NCBI GenBank assembly: GCA_024743075.1
Contig: JANSXG010000002.1
Coordinates: 1 to 50,728 of the forward strand
DNA length: 50,728 bases
From: a bacterium
GTDB taxonomy: Bacteria > Planctomycetota > Phycisphaerae > Phycisphaerales > UBA1924
Direction of reading: 5' to 3'
The position numbers and the translations under genes are program-made. Shown here piece after piece: positions 13,495-22,110 of this stretch (position 1 is the first letter of the stretch; the number at the start of each line of letters is the position of its first letter). The notes beneath the pieces were generated by a model. The model had not been told where the DNA came from, made no database searches, and saw nothing but the letters and a program-made list of their open reading frames with translations.

Positions 13495-13520
13495 AGCCCG
13501 CTGCCACAGAGCAACGGGCT
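13495..13520 (-). terminator. Original ssrA terminator, stranded beyond the left element end
   Basis: On the minus strand the stem is AGCCCGTTGC with GCAGCGGGCT (one G-U pair), loop TCTGTG, followed by GTTTCTTTT: a standard intrinsic terminator. It lies 7 bases beyond the 24-bp tmRNA-end repeat at 13528-13551. Without the inserted element it would sit directly after the tmRNA 3' end, so it is most simply the ancestral ssrA terminator. Confidence 0.8.
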
Positions 13521-13936
13521 TGATCAATAGTGGAGCCGGGGGGAATCGAACAACCCCATTTTCCGCGATTTCGGATGCGTCAGGCGGGGTAGACGCACAC
13601 CAGAACGCACACGAGCAACTCGCAGAGATTGTTCGCGTGTGGGCAAGCCTCCCCGAGGCCTTCCGCGCGGCTGTGCATGGCCTGGTGCGCAGCGAGGCAG
13701 AGAGTGCGTCTCGCCAGCAGACACACGGTTCGTTCGCCCATGAGTCGAGCGATACCCCTGACGGGCGGAGCCATGCCCGACCGGGCGTACCATGCGAGCA
13801 CGGCAGGGGTGTTGATCGACGGGGCTCGGGAGCAGAAGGGCCGTCGGAGCGCTCGGCGGCGGGGTGCGGCTCGCCCGCACCCGCCGCGACGCGACAAGGC
13901 CCGACTCCCGGTGACGGTCGTGAGGTGTCCCCATGA
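13520..13936 (+). CDS. Orphan tail of the integrase reading frame (in frame across att core)
   Basis: 138 codons with no ribosome site at the first ATG. The frame passes through the att core as SGAGGNRT in the same phase as the integrase at the other end. In an excised circle the integrase would read through the core into the 127 codons after it, for a product of about 556 residues instead of 444. The tail has AHQNAHEQLAEIVRVW followed by LPEAFRAAVHGLVRS; a W-x-x-LPE-x-x-R-x-x-(6)-VR pattern is, as far as I recall, recurrent at the ends of planctomycete integrase-associated frames (not checked). Its stop codon overlaps the rep start as ATGA, the arrangement used throughout this element, which supports coding. 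The last 70 residues are low-complexity. In the integrated state it has no obvious start. Confidence 0.5.
   Translation: MINSGAGGNRTTPFSAISDASGGVDAHQNAHEQLAEIVRVWASLPEAFRAAVHGLVRSEAESASRQQTHGSFAHESSDTPDGRSHARPGVPCEHGRGVDRRGSGAEGPSERSAAGCGSPAPAATRQGPTPGDGREVSP
13528..13551. repeat. attL core (24-bp copy of tmRNA 3' end)
   Basis: Identical over 24 bases to 21763-21786; the two diverge immediately on both sides (A before against G, A after against C). Read on the minus strand it is the 3' half of the T-arm plus the acceptor strand of tmRNA, ending CTCCACTA. It is too short to be an RNA gene on its own. Confidence 0.93.
13594..13615. repeat. Left subterminal repeat (candidate integrase arm sites)
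   Basis: 22 bases matching 21595-21616 at 21 of 22 positions in direct orientation. It contains two CGCACA hexamers at 13594 and 13606, 12 bases apart. It begins 42 bases inside attL. Paired short repeats near both ends at helical spacing are typical of arm-type integrase or excisionase sites; that role is inferred. Confidence 0.6.
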
Positions 13937-15114: not shown

Positions 15115-16959
15115 ATGTGGGTAGACGACGTTACTGACATCGATTTCGTCAATTTCACTAGCGTAGCTGACACCGTTGCCGAGGTGATACAGCGAGCCGA
15201 GGGACAACCGGTCTCGATTGGCGTTTCTGGGGCTTGGGGTGTCGGCAAGTCTTCGATGATCAGCCTGATCAAACATTCGATTGCCAAAAAGGATCTCAAT
15301 TCAAAATTTATCTTCGTGGATTTCAATGCATGGCTTTACCAAGGTTTTGATGATGTCCGCGCCGCTCTGCTCGAAATCATTGCCGAGAAGCTTAAGGATG
15401 TAGCGGAAGAACGACAGACTGGAATTGATAAGGCTAAGGAATTACTCGCCAGAGTTGACTGGCTGCGAGTAGTAAGGGCAACTGCAAGCAATGCCATCGC
15501 TTTGTCAATGGGCATGCCTCCGATGGGAATGCTTGGAGAGGCCTTTCGGCGCGGGAAAGCCATGGTCTCCAATGGGGTCACGGAAGATGATATTGATGCT
15601 GCTGGCGAGATGGCCGGTGAGATCAGTAGCTATCTAAGGCCGAAGCATGAAGAATCGCCTCCCCAAGCCATCCATGCTGTCAGATCGTGCTTTGAACAAA
15701 CGCTAGAGGAGCTTGGGGTCACATTAGTGGTACTAATTGACGACCTTGACAGGTGTCTGCCGGAAACCACCATATCGACACTCGAAGCAATTAGGCTCTT
15801 TCTGTTTCTCGATCATACTGCGTTCGTGATTGCAGCTGACAATGATATGATCAAAAATGCAGTCAGAAAGCACTTTGACGGTGTAAGTGATCAGCATGTA
15901 ACTAGCTACTTTGACAAGTTGATTCAGGTGCCCATAGGTGTACCGCCACTTGGTACGCAGGAGGTAAGAGCTTACTTAATGCTCTTGTACGTTGAATCAA
16001 GTGATATGGAGGATGAGGATAAGTCAAAAATACGCGCAGATGTAGTAAGCCAGCTTTCAAAAAGTTGGCAGGGACACCGCGTTGATCGAGCGTTCATGCA
16101 GACATTGGGACATCAGTATCCTGCATATCTGGTAGCCCGATTCGACGCTGCCGATCGGTTAGCACCCTTGATGACGACTGCTGAAGGCATTAAAGGCAAT
16201 CCTCGACTGATCAAGAGATTTCTGAACGCTCTGTCAATCCGTCTTTCGCTTGCGCATTCGCAAGGTGTGACTGTTGAGGAGACTGCTCTCACCAAGTTGC
16301 TTCTTTTCGAACGGTGCGGAGACCGCAAGGCGTACGCCGAGTTGGCAGAAGCGATTGCGAGTAGTGATGATGGAAAGCCGCTGTTCCTCTCAGGGTGGGA
16401 AAAGAGTGCGAGCGCGGGTGAAGAGATGGATCTCCCCCCGCACTGGGACTCTCCTTTTGCGCGAGCGTGGCTCGCATTGGCTCCGGAGTTGTCGGCCCTT
16501 GATCTTCGAGGTGCCTTGTATGTCAGTCGTGAGCACACACCTCTGATTACTCCAGAGGACCGTCTCTCGTCTGCGGGCATAGAAATCCTCACAGCTCTGC
16601 TCGACCACCCTGAAATGGCTGGCGGGCTGGCTCAAGATTTAGCTGGGCTGCAGCATGCAGAGCGAAGTGTGATTTTCGATCGTGTGCTCGAGCGTGCGCG
16701 TCTGATACAAGAATGGGGTATACCAGACGAGCTTGAGGCTTGCCTTGTCCTGTCGCGATCTGACGCATCTCTTGGCGATCGCCTGGCGGCATTTTTAGGC
16801 GAGCGACCAGCTGTTCAGTTGACACCGGCAATTGTGCAAAAGATATCAATGGAGCCATGGTCCAAGACGGTCTTCAAGCAATGGCAATCAGCGGATCCCT
16901 CTGAAGAAGTCAGCAGGGCCATCACGAGGGTATTGAAGGATGGGAACATCACAGTCTAG
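15115..16959 (+). CDS. qatA: QatA, KAP-family P-loop ATPase of the Qat anti-phage system
   Basis: 614 residues. Walker A is GAWGVGKSS at residues 39-47; after it FVDFNAWLYQ is the KAP-type 'F-NAW' strand. Residues about 105-150 (VRATASNAIALSMGMPP) are the hydrophobic insertion typical of KAP NTPases, and Walker B is LVVLIDD at 204-210, continuing LDRCLPE. The ATG at 15115 follows GAGGAGAG. KAP ATPases occur in several phage-defence systems. Here the following QatB-like, QueC-like and TatD-like genes identify Qat (QueC-like protein associated with ATPase and TatD DNase), reported to protect against phages by a mechanism not fully known. A candidate -10 (CATAAT) lies at 15048-15053. The gene has lower GC and uses TTA, ATA and AGA codons more than the flanking chromosome. 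Confidence 0.9.
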   Translation: MWVDDVTDIDFVNFTSVADTVAEVIQRAEGQPVSIGVSGAWGVGKSSMISLIKHSIAKKDLNSKFIFVDFNAWLYQGFDDVRAALLEIIAEKLKDVAEERQTGIDKAKELLARVDWLRVVRATASNAIALSMGMPPMGMLGEAFRRGKAMVSNGVTEDDIDAAGEMAGEISSYLRPKHEESPPQAIHAVRSCFEQTLEELGVTLVVLIDDLDRCLPETTISTLEAIRLFLFLDHTAFVIAADNDMIKNAVRKHFDGVSDQHVTSYFDKLIQVPIGVPPLGTQEVRAYLMLLYVESSDMEDEDKSKIRADVVSQLSKSWQGHRVDRAFMQTLGHQYPAYLVARFDAADRLAPLMTTAEGIKGNPRLIKRFLNALSIRLSLAHSQGVTVEETALTKLLLFERCGDRKAYAELAEAIASSDDGKPLFLSGWEKSASAGEEMDLPPHWDSPFARAWLALAPELSALDLRGALYVSREHTPLITPEDRLSSAGIEILTALLDHPEMAGGLAQDLAGLQHAERSVIFDRVLERARLIQEWGIPDELEACLVLSRSDASLGDRLAAFLGERPAVQLTPAIVQKISMEPWSKTVFKQWQSADPSEEVSRAITRVLKDGNITV

Positions 16960-17770
16960 TACCGGATCTCCATCTGGCGTACCGATGGTGCCTCCTTGGG
17001 TTGACGGGAGTGACGGAGAGATTCCTCCGCAGGCGGAGTCGCCCTCGGAAGATATCGATGATTCTGATGAAGCTATCGATAAGCCTCATCAACCAGAACA
17101 GTTAGCTCCAAAGGCACGGTTCTACTCAACGCGGATTGCTTTGGGGAAGTTCGCCGAGACTGGTGATCGCGCTCCAATGCAACGAGGGGTCGGTCGCTAC
17201 ATTGGGGCTGGCTTGGGGGGGACCCAAACTGCCGTCAGAAGATTTGGAGGTACGGCGACGGGTGCGTCTGCGCTGTACTCGGCCCTTGGTGGAACGTCGT
17301 CCGATCGGGACACTAAACTTGATAGAAATGTATTGGCAGGGCGAACGGCAAATCAGATCATCGCCGCTGTAGTAGAAGCAACCCGCCCCGTGGACGGTTC
17401 TTTGGATTCAGAAGCTAGTCGACAATCGATCAATGATGCGTTGTCTGATCTTTTGAAGCGGTACCCTGATACAGACTTGTTAAAGCTAACAGAAGAACAA
17501 CGTGTCTTTGTAGTGGAGAGATATGTTGCCTATGATGTGTACTTGAGATTTATGCTCGATGTCGGGCAGCATATTCAAGATAAATCACCAACCCGATCCA
17601 TAGCACTGTCTCGTCAGCGTCAGATACGTGAGTATATTCGCGAGGCAGTTGCAGCTTCATTTCGCACCATGCGGAATGCTGGTAGAACGCTGACGGGTGG
17701 CAACGTATCGTCTTTGGTGAGATCGGCGCTGGAAAGTGCCTTCGATGTTTTCGTAGGATTTTCAGAATGA
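16940..17770 (+). CDS. qatB: QatB, Qat system component of unknown biochemical role
   Basis: 276 residues, starting 20 bases inside qatA in another frame, so the two are probably translationally coupled. The N-terminus 'GTSQSSTGSPSGVPMVPPWV' is the low-complexity Ser/Gly/Pro opening typical of QatB proteins, followed by an acidic linker (about 30-50). The rest is probably helical, with a conserved block near 'RYIGAGLGGTQTAVRRFGGT' and a C-terminal helical part (about 170-276). No enzymatic motif is visible. The assignment rests on the N-terminal pattern, size and position between the KAP ATPase and QueC-like genes. Confidence 0.85.
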   Translation: MGTSQSSTGSPSGVPMVPPWVDGSDGEIPPQAESPSEDIDDSDEAIDKPHQPEQLAPKARFYSTRIALGKFAETGDRAPMQRGVGRYIGAGLGGTQTAVRRFGGTATGASALYSALGGTSSDRDTKLDRNVLAGRTANQIIAAVVEATRPVDGSLDSEASRQSINDALSDLLKRYPDTDLLKLTEEQRVFVVERYVAYDVYLRFMLDVGQHIQDKSPTRSIALSRQRQIREYIREAVAASFRTMRNAGRTLTGGNVSSLVRSALESAFDVFVGFSE

Positions 17771-19044
17771 AGCTCATCTGTCGACCTCACGGCACATCCT
17801 TGCCGACGCCAAGCCGTTGTGATCTTCCCGTTTTGATGTACGGCCGTTGCGAGTCAGGTCGCGCAATCTCTTGTGGCGCAGCGGTCGCGGAGCAGATAAG
17901 GCGGAAAGGTTATGTTCTGCCCCAGCGAGCATGGGACCTTTTGTCGTTGGCTCTCGCTGTGACGGCTGCTGACACAGCAATTGGCAGAGGACTAAGCCCG
18001 GATGGGTGGACTAGACAGTTAGATTTGGATATTGGAGTGCACGATCCAGACTTTTGGAATTCCCAAAAAGAATTGATTGGATCGATTCTCCAGTTTCTAA
18101 CTACTGATATCTGGAAAGTGCAATTCGTCCAAGCGTCATATGAGCCGAAACCTCCAAAGCATGTCGCTTTATGCGAAGAGAAGTCAGTCATGTTGCTGTC
18201 GGGGGGGCTGGACAGCTTGGTTGGCGCGCTGGATTTGGTTGCAGCAGGAATAAAGCCTGTCGCGGTTAGTCAGACAGTAAAGGGCGATGGTGAAAAGCAG
18301 TTGGTATTCGCAAGCAGCATAGGCGGGGGGTTGACACATCTGCAGCTGAATCACAATGTCAAGGCTCCGAAGGGCGCCGAAAGGTCACAGCGTGCGAGGT
18401 CATTTATTTTTCTGACTTATGGCGTGCTTGCTGCAACTGCGCTGCCAAATTATCAAGATAGTCCTCAACTTCCCATGTACGTGTGCGAGAATGGGTTAAT
18501 CGCAATCAATCCTCCGTTAACTGATACGCGAATAGGCAGCCTAAGTACTCGCACGACTCATCCTACATACCTGTCGAAGTTTCAGAAGCTTCTTGATAAC
18601 GCTAAGTTATTTGTTTCGATCCGCAACCCATATGAATTTAAGACTAAAGGTGAGATGCTCAGTGAGTGTGGGGATCAGGATTATTTGATCAATGCTGCGC
18701 ATGTCTCTACTAGTTGTGGTCGCTTTGCTCGGCATGGTATGAAACACTGTGGCCGTTGCGTTCCTTGTTTGATTCGCCGAGCAGCTTTCCAGCGATGGGA
18801 AGTGGCCGATAGGACACAGTATCTATTTGCTGATCTTTCAAAATCGGACAAGGATCACGCGCAGTTCGATGACGTCCGAGCTTTGTCAATGGCTGTGTCT
18901 CGTGCAAAAAATGAGGGCGTGGATGCTGTACTAGGAGCAAGCTTGCTGTCAGATGCAATCGATGATCCTGAGCCCTATCGTGGAGTGGTCGAGAGGGGTC
19001 TAGCTGAAGTGCGTCATTTGTTGGAAGGGTACCGGGTGCGATGA
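17767..19044 (+). CDS. qatC: QatC, QueC-like PP-loop protein of the Qat system
   Basis: 425 residues; the start overlaps the qatB stop as ATGA. The PP-loop ATP-binding motif is LLSGGLDS (about 143-150), as in QueC, the 7-cyano-7-deazaguanine synthase. A QueC-like zinc cluster is present: Cys at 317, 328, 331 and 334 (STSCGR, then KHCGRCVPC). The first 130 residues precede the PP-loop and are absent from housekeeping QueC, which is about 230 residues long. QueC converts carboxy-deazaguanine to the nitrile with ATP. The QatC substrate is not established here, though both ATP-binding and zinc motifs appear intact. No queD, queE or queF lies nearby, which argues against a queuosine-pathway role. 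The region is AT-rich compared with the host. Confidence 0.9.
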   Translation: MKLICRPHGTSLPTPSRCDLPVLMYGRCESGRAISCGAAVAEQIRRKGYVLPQRAWDLLSLALAVTAADTAIGRGLSPDGWTRQLDLDIGVHDPDFWNSQKELIGSILQFLTTDIWKVQFVQASYEPKPPKHVALCEEKSVMLLSGGLDSLVGALDLVAAGIKPVAVSQTVKGDGEKQLVFASSIGGGLTHLQLNHNVKAPKGAERSQRARSFIFLTYGVLAATALPNYQDSPQLPMYVCENGLIAINPPLTDTRIGSLSTRTTHPTYLSKFQKLLDNAKLFVSIRNPYEFKTKGEMLSECGDQDYLINAAHVSTSCGRFARHGMKHCGRCVPCLIRRAAFQRWEVADRTQYLFADLSKSDKDHAQFDDVRALSMAVSRAKNEGVDAVLGASLLSDAIDDPEPYRGVVERGLAEVRHLLEGYRVR

Positions 19045-19772
19045 TCGATCTGCATTGTCACATTGATCTTTATCCTGATCCGCAAATGGTCATTCGTAAA
19101 TGTTTGTCGAAATCAATTTTTGTCCTTTCGGTGACTACTACGCCTCAAGCTTGGCCTATTTCGTCAAATATTGTATCTATGCATTCAAAGATGCCAGCGG
19201 CACTCGGACTTCACCCCCAGCTCGCAGGGTCGCGACGGTCTGAAGTCGATTTATTTGACAGTCTCATTGGCGAGACATCGTGGTTAGGGGAAATTGGGCT
19301 GGATGGGGCAGCGGAGTTTTCCCATACTTGGCAAGATCAGCTATTTGTGTTTGAGCACATTCTCAAAAGTGCCTCGTATGATGGTGGGAAAATTATGTCA
19401 ATTCATAGCCGACGGGCTGCCAGGGATGTCCTCGGCGTGCTGAGGCGATTCCCCGATGCGGGCGTGCCTGTTTTGCACTGGTTTTCCGGTACGCTAGCAG
19501 AGCTTCAAGAAGCGATTGACATGGGTTGCTGGTTCAGTGTTGGCTCACCAATGATGCACTCAAAGAGTGGGCGAGCTTTGATTGCTCGCATTCCCAAAAC
19601 TCGCTTGCTGACTGAGTCCGATGGGCCGTTTGTCCAGCATTCGGGTGGGCCTGCCTATCCGTGGCAGGTGATAGAAACCAGTGCGGAGCTCTCCAGGGTT
19701 TGGGGCGTAGATCCAAAGGTCGTTTCCGCACAACTCGAGGACAATCTCGCGTGTTTGCTGTCAAGTATCTGA
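19041..19772 (+). CDS. qatD: QatD, TatD-like metal-dependent nuclease of the Qat system
   Basis: 243 residues; ATGA overlap with qatC. All expected TatD metal ligands are visible: HCH at residues 5-7, Glu84 in GEIGLD, His122 in IHSRR, His146 in LHWFSG and Asp194 in TESDGP. The protein should therefore be an active metal-dependent hydrolase, probably a DNase. TatD enzymes act as 3'-5' exonucleases or endonucleases. In Qat, this nuclease is thought to be the effector or a processing enzyme (inference). Length is close to housekeeping TatD (about 260). It closes the qat operon; 145 bases with a candidate promoter separate it from the regulator gene. Confidence 0.9.
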   Translation: MIDLHCHIDLYPDPQMVIRKCLSKSIFVLSVTTTPQAWPISSNIVSMHSKMPAALGLHPQLAGSRRSEVDLFDSLIGETSWLGEIGLDGAAEFSHTWQDQLFVFEHILKSASYDGGKIMSIHSRRAARDVLGVLRRFPDAGVPVLHWFSGTLAELQEAIDMGCWFSVGSPMMHSKSGRALIARIPKTRLLTESDGPFVQHSGGPAYPWQVIETSAELSRVWGVDPKVVSAQLEDNLACLLSSI

Positions 19773-19917: not shown

Positions 19918-20295
19918 ATGGCCAAGAAACACCAACCAAAGCCCCGCGACGAGGGCAAGGCCCGCTTCGAGCTCCGCTTCGATGAAGACTTGTACGCTGA
20001 AATCAAGCGAATCGCGGACGAGACCGAGATCAGCGTCAATCAGCTGATGCAGGGCATCGCTCGGTGGGCAGTCAAATATGCCCACCCCCGTGAAGAGGTC
20101 ACGGATTTCAATCCTTTCGAGGGTGTAGACACCGCGACCCAGCCGGGCTGCGTCTGGTTTGGACACCAGTGTGATGTATGCGATGACGGCGACGAACCAT
20201 TCCCGATCAATGCTGAAGTCTTCTTCCACCTTGACTTTACCGAGCGACGAGTCGTCCGCGAACCTGAACCACAGCCCAGAGGAGGTCGATCATGA
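19918..20295 (+). CDS. Ribbon-helix-helix DNA-binding protein with Cys-containing tail
   Basis: 125 residues from the ATG at 19918, five bases after AAGGAGG; an in-frame extension to 19798 is unlikely. Residues about 14-45 (ARFELRFDEDLYAEIKRIADETEISVNQLM) have the beta-strand/helix/helix pattern of Arc/CopG-type repressors. The second half is unusual: CVWFGHQCDVCDDGDEPF contains three Cys in a Cx6Cx2C arrangement that might bind metal. Such regulators commonly autorepress and control excision. The gene is coupled by ATGA to the excisionase gene, so it is likely the master regulator of excision (inference). GC content is back to host level here, unlike qat. Confidence 0.72.
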   Translation: MAKKHQPKPRDEGKARFELRFDEDLYAEIKRIADETEISVNQLMQGIARWAVKYAHPREEVTDFNPFEGVDTATQPGCVWFGHQCDVCDDGDEPFPINAEVFFHLDFTERRVVREPEPQPRGGRS

Positions 20296-20501
20296 GCCAA
20301 CTAAAGAAGCCAAGAGAACTCTCACGTCTTCTCACTCTTGATGAGGTCGCCAATCGGCTCGCGGTTAGTCGACGGACCATCGATCGATTGATCGCTGAGG
20401 GCGAACTCCCAAGATCCGTGAAGATCGGGGCATCGTCACGAATGCCCGAGGAAGACCTGCGGCTATACATCGAACGCCAGTTACGGAAGCGGGGGGGCTG
20501 A
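20292..20501 (+). CDS. Excisionase-type helix-turn-helix protein
   Basis: 69 residues, overlapping the upstream gene (ATGA) and the integrase start (TGATG, one shared base). The core LTLDEVANRLAVSRRTIDRL, followed by IAEGELPRSVKIG and PEEDLRLYIERQL, is the winged helix-turn-helix pattern of the excise/AlpA/MerR-like family. Position directly before int and small size support excisionase: a DNA-bending factor that directs recombination towards excision. The arm-like repeats at 13594 and 21595 are candidate sites for it or for the integrase. Confidence 0.82.
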   Translation: MSQLKKPRELSRLLTLDEVANRLAVSRRTIDRLIAEGELPRSVKIGASSRMPEEDLRLYIERQLRKRGG

Positions 20502-21835
20502 TGCCTTATCAAGTCTTCCAGCCGACACGCATGAAGAACGGAAAGCGTGTTCGATCGCCGCTTTACTCGATGAAGTATCGCTTTGAACCTCACGAGCGCT
20601 ACAAGCGAATCCCGCTCAAGACAACCGACAAGCGGGTTGCCGAGAAGAAGGCGGCAGAGATTTACCGGGAGATGGAACGCGAGCGCGAGGGCATACTCGC
20701 ACCGCGTGTCCAGCGTGATGCTGCAGGGATGCCGATCGCGGATCTGCTTCGCGAATTCGTGGACGAACTCGAGCTTCGAGGACGGTCAAGAGACTATCGG
20801 CGGAAAGTCGAACAGCGATGCCAGGCAGTCGTCGACGCCACAGGCTGGCGGTTGCTCCGTGAAGTCGACTCTGATGAGTTCCGATCATGGCGGCGGGGGA
20901 AATCCCGAACGGTCTCGCCGAGAACGCTCAACCACTACACCGATTCACTGCGGAACTTCTTCGGCTGGCTGGTCGAGACTGAGCGACTCACGCACAATCC
21001 TCTGGCCTCGATCACACCCGTAGAGTCACGAGGTCGAGAGAAGAACAAGCGGCGGGCCTTGACCGATGCGGAGTCTCGCGAACTCGTCGCGACCTCCGGC
21101 GAGCGGTCGCTGATCTACATGGTGGCACTGCGGACCGGACTGCGGCGGAATGAGATCCGCACGCTCCGCTGGTCAGATGTCCTGCTCGATGGCGAGCAGC
21201 CCCGCATAGTTGTCAGAGCGTCAAACGCGAAGTCGAAGCGTGAAGAGGCCGTGCCCCTGTCCGATGAACTCGCCAGCGAACTCAAGCGGATCAAGCCTGG
21301 ACCAGATGCGTCCGGCAAGGTCTTTCGCCGTGGGATGCCTTCACACCACACCTTCCGCCGAGACTTGGTGGCTGCTGGGATCGCTCATACGGACCGCGAG
21401 GGCCGCCGGGTCGACTTCCATGCCCTGCGGCACACCTTCGGCACGAGCCTCGCCAAGGCGGGCGTGCCGCTCCAGGTCGCCATGCGGCTGATGAGGCACA
21501 CCGATCCGAAGCTGACGGCGCGGGTCTATGTCGATGCGGGCCAGCTACCGACCCACGAGGCGATCGGTTCCCTGCCTTCGCTGGGTGCAAAAAGCGCACA
21601 CCAGAGCGCACACGAGGGCGCACATATTCGGGTCGCGGACGGTGTCGGGGAGTCGTCGGCTGTCGCGAAGATGAAACCCGAGAGCAACGAAAATATCCCG
21701 TCAATTAAGCAAAAAGGCGTGCCGAAGCACGCCCAGTCGCCCGCTGTCGCGAGTCGTCGAAGTAGTGGAGCCGGGGGGAATCGAACCCCCGTGTCGGAAC
21801 AGTCCGCGTGCCGCTTCTACGCGTGTAGTCGCTGA
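20501..21835 (+). CDS. int: Tyrosine recombinase (integrase) running through attR into tmRNA
   Basis: 444 residues. The N-terminal part has an AP2-like region (about 10-60) and a SAM-like core-binding domain (about 78-170). The catalytic domain carries Arg215 (TGLRRNEI), a Lys in AKSKREEAVPL (about 246), His307 and Arg310 (FHALRH), His333 (MRHTDP) and Tyr343 (ARVYVD): the full active set. After residue 360 the sequence is low-complexity (AHQSAHEGAH and onward). Residues 421-429 (SSGAGGNRT) are encoded by the att core, and the last 15 residues and stop come from DNA antisense to tmRNA. The natural C-terminus is therefore accidental in the integrated state; in a circle the frame continues into the 13552-13936 tail. 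Expected reaction: site-specific recombination between the element and the ssrA 3' end. Confidence 0.93.
   Translation: MPYQVFQPTRMKNGKRVRSPLYSMKYRFEPHERYKRIPLKTTDKRVAEKKAAEIYREMEREREGILAPRVQRDAAGMPIADLLREFVDELELRGRSRDYRRKVEQRCQAVVDATGWRLLREVDSDEFRSWRRGKSRTVSPRTLNHYTDSLRNFFGWLVETERLTHNPLASITPVESRGREKNKRRALTDAESRELVATSGERSLIYMVALRTGLRRNEIRTLRWSDVLLDGEQPRIVVRASNAKSKREEAVPLSDELASELKRIKPGPDASGKVFRRGMPSHHTFRRDLVAAGIAHTDREGRRVDFHALRHTFGTSLAKAGVPLQVAMRLMRHTDPKLTARVYVDAGQLPTHEAIGSLPSLGAKSAHQSAHEGAHIRVADGVGESSAVAKMKPESNENIPSIKQKGVPKHAQSPAVASRRSSGAGGNRTPVSEQSACRFYACSR
21595..21624. repeat. Right subterminal repeats: three CGCACA at 12-base steps
   Basis: CGCACA at 21595, 21607 and 21619. The first 22 bases match 13594-13615 with one mismatch. 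The block lies within the 3' part of int, 138 bases before the attR core, and encodes AHQSAHEGAH. Likely arm-type binding sites; alternatively a coding repeat only, but the match in the non-homologous left end argues for a DNA role. Confidence 0.6.
21716..21733 (-). terminator. Element-encoded intrinsic terminator for tmRNA
   Basis: On the minus strand: GGCGTGC, TTCG loop, GCACGCC, then TTTTT. This is a textbook intrinsic terminator with a UUCG tetraloop, 33 bases past the tmRNA 3' end. It lies inside the int coding region (residues about 405-412). It replaces the original terminator, now displaced to 13495-13520. Confidence 0.85.
21763..21786. repeat. attR core (3' end of intact tmRNA gene)
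   Basis: 24 bases identical to attL at 13528-13551. It spans the 3' side of the tmRNA T-arm and acceptor stem and is read through in frame by int. The exact crossover point within the 24 bases cannot be told from sequence. Confidence 0.93.
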
Positions 21836-22110
21836 TTTCATCTCGCTCGCTGAGCCGAGCAGGACACCCTGCTCAGCGCGCCAGCCTCAGAAAGTTCTCG
21901 CCGATCGGCGCTGAGACGCCGCCTTTCGGCCAGCCCGATGTCATTGAGCGTCACCCTATCGGGCGTCGGACGACGCTCAGGCCACTTTATTAGGCGGCCA
22001 TAGCAAACTGCGGTTCGGCAGTTATAAGTGTGAACGCTTGATAACGCGGTTGCATTCGCCGCGACGCGCCACGACACACATTCCCTGTCCGGTCGATGCC
22101 GGTCGGCCCC
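21766..22110 (-). ncRNA. ssrA: Transfer-messenger RNA (tmRNA)
   Basis: The 5' end GGGGCCG pairs with CGGCTCC at the 3' end (seven pairs, one G-U). The 3' part has a T-arm with GTTCGATTCC. The tag frame on the minus strand runs 22019-21987: GCC GAA CCG CAG TTT GCT ATG GCC GCC then two TAA stops, encoding AEPQFAMAA, with TAACT just before the resume codon, comparable to UAGUC in E. coli. This fits the common A-x-x-x-(F/Y)-A-x-A-A tag consensus. The terminal CCA is not encoded (CTA follows the discriminator). tmRNA with SmpB rescues stalled ribosomes and tags products for proteolysis. The mature sequence appears intact despite the integrated element; only the downstream terminator differs. Confidence 0.9.

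Follow-up and report, generated by a model that had tools for sequence, protein, structure and literature searches.

The window (the whole 50,728-nucleotide stretch of DNA that was analysed) contains an 8.2-kb element integrated at the 3' end of ssrA (Table 1). An integrase gene, an intact target gene and a displaced target fragment forming a 24-nt direct repeat (at 13528 and 21763) give it the make-up of a tDNA-targeted genomic island. The int product has a tyrosine integrase domain (PF00589, 2.6e-21) with the R, H, R, H, Y residues of tyrosine recombinases; R215, H307, R310, H333 and Y343 were invariant across five relatives. The cargo is a QatABCD anti-phage defence operon, for which PADLOC matched QatA (2e-144), QatC (3e-104) and QatD (2e-85). 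A synteny search for the empty site of the window's own flank gave no informative match; plasmid records yielded no close relative; and no relative of the window integrase above 50% identity was found among 400 genomes of the order, 84,980 species genomes and viral contigs.

Table 1. Features of the integrated element and its junctions, in window coordinates.
Feature	Position	Strand	Remarks
Displaced native ssrA terminator	13495..13520	minus	AGCCCGTTGC-TCTGTG-GCAGCGGGCT, tail GTTTCTTTTC
att core, left copy	13528..13551		displaced ssrA 3' fragment; perfect 24-nt repeat
Alternative 3' part of int	13528..13936	plus	joined to int in the circular form only; contains LAEIVRVWASLPEAFRAAVHGLVRS
Putative arm-type repeat CGCACACCAGAACGCACACGAG	13594..13615	plus	other side of core; +39..+61 after core
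Replication initiator, Rep_trans PF02486	13933..14955	plus	ATG overlaps the circular-form int stop (ATGA)
QatABCD defence operon (cargo)	15115..19772	plus	PADLOC matches
Small helix-turn-helix-like ORF	20292..20501	plus	upstream of int, TGATG overlap; possible excisionase, assigned by eye
Tyrosine integrase, integrated form	20501..21835	plus	444 aa; final ~22 aa are ssrA antisense
Putative arm-type repeat CGCACACCAGAGCGCACACGAG	21595..21616	plus	inside int; -171..-149 from core
Predicted intrinsic terminator hairpin for ssrA	21716..21733	minus	int codons 406-411; U tract 21711-21715
att core, right copy	21763..21786		junction of int and the ssrA 3' end
ssrA (tmRNA)	21763..22110	minus	sole copy found in genome; 3' end from element

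The hairpin downstream of ssrA and its recurrence

Read directly from the minus strand, the hairpin is GGCGTGC-TTCG-GCACGCC followed by TTTTT, the same stem, UUCG loop and T5 run that a sequence-only reading of this DNA had described. Its RNA fold gave -15.2 kcal/mol (z -4.3), 0 of 200 shuffles were equally stable, and 4 of 1012 zones of the window held a hairpin scoring as high as the ssrA one. Because the tmRNA ends at 21763 on the minus strand, the stem starts ~32 nt past its 3' end, and it lies in frame within the int ORF; the placement had thus been given correctly, with small errors in the distance (33 bases) and in the codon range (about 405-412). The GC-rich stem, the short loop and the U tract adjoining it in the direction of ssrA transcription are the sequence features of an intrinsic terminator. 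On the plus strand, which is the int strand, the hairpin has no U tract and it is therefore directional. The old terminator, proposed to lie beyond the left end of the element, was found just outside the left att copy (fold -21.4 kcal/mol), as expected for the native ssrA terminator of an empty site. From this arrangement ssrA transcripts would be expected to end at the window hairpin, and termination there might spare ssrA (tmRNA) or int; a U tract on one strand only could allow read-through of an int-rep operon in the circular form.

We examined if a hairpin is present at the same place in other integrating elements. The starting sets were about 110 ssrA genes of the window's family and 80 related integrase loci from the 84,980 species genomes, and the test set comprised 100 distinct genes for tRNA or tmRNA, each faced by an integrase gene on the antisense strand that reached to or near the 3' end of the RNA gene. 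A terminator was called strong when it scored at least 17 and started within 100 nt of the RNA gene end, and one scoring rule was applied throughout. Within the int tail, 13 of the 100 loci had a strong terminator on the RNA strand, as compared with 1.0 expected from dinucleotide shuffles; there were 0 in 100 loci on the opposite strand of the same zone (13 vs 0, p 1.6e-4), and 0 in 100 on either strand of the catalytic-domain zone. The terminators were positioned in one of two ranges, +5 to +11 and +32 to +72, and accounting for all 13 on an integrase tree of 99 rows takes no fewer than 10 changes (quick search, with long branches present). By the same rule, 14 of 60 int-free ssrA genes had a strong terminator. 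Across the population of related loci the case for terminators above chance is strong, and elements of this kind repeatedly carry a predicted target-gene terminator within int. This is a minority pattern and not a general rule: 87 of the 100 loci (87%) had no recognisable terminator, and the nearest relatives of the window integrase, L045, L036 and L054 (also in ssrA, at no more than 50% identity), were without one. The earlier proposal of a replacement terminator for ssrA therefore stands for the window, where the hairpin is element-borne and suitably placed and oriented, with the native terminator displaced; it does not stand as a statement about such elements generally.

The ssrA gene is a very busy integration site, with an antisense integrase downstream in about 40 of roughly 100 family ssrA genes. 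L122 has two extra ssrA 3' fragments, at 7.2 and 18.4 kb, which point to elements arranged in tandem at a single ssrA. A second clade of ssrA integrases has a conserved inverted repeat, CCGGGACTTGCGG-N7-CCGCAAGTCCCGG, in the first 60 nt after the tmRNA end and with no U tract (L089, L025, L026, L031, L069, L082, L084, L099, L108 and others).

Origin of the element terminators

Elements in G332, G295 and G017 have a 13-pair terminator, GACGGGTTCTGTC-N7-GACAGGACCCGTC, directly after ssrA and within the int tail, where in G332 its sequence codes for TGPVATGQNPS. This stem is also present downstream of ssrA in G388 and G325, neither of which showed an antisense integrase there, and downstream of the displaced ssrA fragment in G058 and G147. 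Each of the 7 sequences forms the full set of 13 pairs, two pairs via double compensatory changes; slid controls gave no such pairing. G295, G332, G388, G325, G058 and G147 are of one genus. G017 is of another genus; its own displaced native terminator differs from the element terminator, and its int is interrupted by a frame break. The likeliest account of these homologies is that an element carried a terminator of the first genus's type (as in G388 and G325) into the genus of G017. Homology between an element terminator and the native ssrA terminator of a host can thus occur, which makes capture from the ssrA flank of an earlier host likely. For the window itself, GGGCGTGNNNCGGCACGCCNTTTT had a single further exact match across 163 family genomes, in the ssrA terminator of G011 (at +30, as against +31 in the window); as a clue to the origin of the window hairpin this match has no more than suggestive value, the pattern having been constructed once the match had been noticed.

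Elements with both ends available allowed the native and element terminators to be compared. A strong element terminator was present in the window, L120 and L123, in each case together with a strong native terminator; L189 has the native terminator without one from the element, as do, with less certainty, G058 and G147; and in the remaining elements neither was strong. Counted by displaced flank, a strong native terminator was accompanied by a strong element terminator in 3 of 4 elements (3 of 6 if G058 and G147 are included), and 0 of the elements whose flank lacks a strong native terminator had a strong one of their own (Fisher p about 0.009, for a small sample, ignoring phylogeny, and with attL not proven part of the same island in two cases).

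Host capture may not be involved at all, the terminator having arisen within the element or moved from the element into the host; this is a doubtful but real alternative, as the direction of transfer in the genus of G388 and G325 is unrooted and most elements' hairpins match no known host flank. Against it, the sequence shared by G388 and the displaced flank in G058 extends past the terminator, as would be expected if it were host DNA. We regard it as unlikely that the hairpin is a by-product of GC-rich int-tail codons lying beside an AAAAA run, with ssrA ended by processing or by Rho as in most related elements. The 87 loci with no such hairpin agree with a by-product, as does the finding that synonymous recodings of the int tail gave a hairpin scoring as high, in the 100 nt after ssrA, in 66 of 4000 trials (1.6%); but codon-order shuffles did so in 4 of 4000 only, and a by-product does not account for the strand-specific enrichment over the shuffle expectation, for the compensatory changes in one clade, or for the position of the G011 match, which is also downstream of ssrA. 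Taken singly, the case that the window hairpin exceeds chance is moderate to strong. It is very improbable that the inverted repeat serves attP in protein binding or recombination (as an accessory or excisionase site) and is not a terminator. The repeat does lie within attP between the arm repeat at 21595-21616 and the core, and in the second clade of ssrA integrases a perfect inverted repeat with no U tract stands close after ssrA; but the one-strand U tract and UUCG loop of the window hairpin fit termination, as do the differing sequences and spacings in other elements, and the arm sites are direct repeats located elsewhere.

We therefore favour, at a probability of about 0.7, the explanation that attP brings a new ssrA end together with a one-way terminator that was captured earlier, the native terminator being displaced. 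When the 8.2-kb element enters the ssrA 3' end, attP would provide the replacement 3' end and, about 32 nt further, the one-directional intrinsic terminator, situated in the attP spacer that separates the core from the P'-arm repeat, with the whole of attP inside int; the native terminator would be pushed to the far end. In the integrated state ssrA transcripts would be stopped before running antisense into int. In the circular form, with no U tract on its strand, int would read through attP, acquire a conserved C-terminal segment and continue into rep. Such terminators were probably gained when attP captured ssrA-flank DNA of an earlier host, and may have been retained chiefly in hosts that rely on intrinsic termination at ssrA.

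attP within the int reading frame

The two att copies in the window are 8235 nt (3 x 2745) apart, with the left copy in frame with int, and int of the circular form therefore stays in frame through the core, passing into the left end to its stop at 13936. Both ends and readable sequence were available for 24 elements, and in all 24 the int frame was open for at least 64 codons beyond the core; of the other frames, 37 of 48 were closed within 60 codons. A pattern search for a motif like LxxVVxAWPxLPxxLRAAVLAIV matched 20 of 25 int-frame tails and 0 tails in other frames, and a like motif was seen by eye in L120, L121 and L122. Integration swaps this conserved C-terminal motif for a short tRNA antisense, e.g. 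GAGGNRTPVSEQSACRFYACSR; in the species-genome set, 61 of 67 loci had an int frame that was open as far as the tRNA. A viral contig (L281), with no tRNA at this place, has the whole int ORF contiguous, with a tRNA 3' fragment inside it, identical 22-nt repeats on each side, and then the C-terminal motif. Rep_trans or REP_ORF2-G2P genes come directly after int in several other elements. Three tiny elements of 2.2 to 2.4 kb (L218, L206, L124) have little besides int.

A direct repeat flanked the core in 22 of 24 elements, about 120-175 nt before it and 25-90 nt after, usually as two similar units whose sequence was particular to each element. Mere coding duplication was ruled out as their source: 7 of the 22 pairs are mutually out of frame, and the constraint therefore acts on the DNA. 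The repeats fit putative arm-type integrase sites. As judged from these frames and repeats, a complete attP (arm repeats plus core) lies within int, integration changes the predicted C-terminus of the integrase, and the arrangement is spread through Planctomycetota and Verrucomicrobiota; this architecture is a more important result than the terminator. We lean towards a view of this integrase clade of the Planctomycetota and Verrucomicrobiota in which the entire attP is held in int, the C-terminal swap and the cut between int and rep act as a switch between circular and integrated states, and host terminators have been captured. The long and short integrase forms may then differ in activity, and rep could be driven by the int promoter in the circle only. 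Two viral contigs with other integrases (L285, L286) have an int ORF that contains a tRNA-like fragment with repeats on either side but has a different C-terminus, and the arrangement may be broader than this clade.

To our knowledge, attP inside int in bacteria has been known mainly from phage Mx8. According to the summaries in PMC6070905 and PMC4383910, the intP gene of this Myxococcus phage (Tojo 1996; Magrini 1999) has attP within it and its integrase remains active after integration, and the former summary adds that integration gives int a new 3' end and a changed specificity. The likeness of our elements to Mx8 is one of arrangement: attP is inside int, int receives a new 3' end on integration and the integrase would not be inactivated, the ORF being open across attP in the circular form and the catalytic part whole when integrated. 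Unlike Mx8, these elements target many tRNAs plus tmRNA, across two phyla; their arm repeats are inside the ORF; most tails have the conserved C-terminal motif; rep directly follows in several; and some carry the target-gene terminator. The SSV-type suicidal integrases of archaea (PMC8371274, a review in which such integrases are called exclusively archaeal) also have attP inside int, a gene that is separated on integration, and an element ending in a tRNA gene. In the present elements, by contrast, the separated part comes after the catalytic tyrosine and the integrated copy has all catalytic residues. An SSV-type suicidal integrase was ruled out for the window, as Y343 is about 78 codons before the core; the present integrases are not suicidal in that sense because their catalytic residues stay together. 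As in ordinary tDNA islands, described with Islander (PMC4383910, which explicitly permits Mx8 and SSV integrases to cross attP), the target 3' end is restored and a displaced fragment marks the far end; unlike these, the element here also replaces the terminator and keeps attP in a reading frame. A literature search of incomplete coverage found neither replacement terminators in islands nor this PVC integrase clade.

Integrating elements restore the 3' end of the gene that they enter; some, it now appears, also replace the transcription terminator of their target, using sequence whose opposite strand encodes protein, and capture of host flank in attP is a suggested route for this replacement. 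The tail swap at attP explains an oddity of annotation, namely integrases whose final residues, for example GGNRTPV or WSRGESNPRP, are tRNA antisense. The attP-inside-int arrangement appears to be common in PVC bacteria, and many natural long/short integrase pairs are thereby available for the study of how the direction of integration is controlled.
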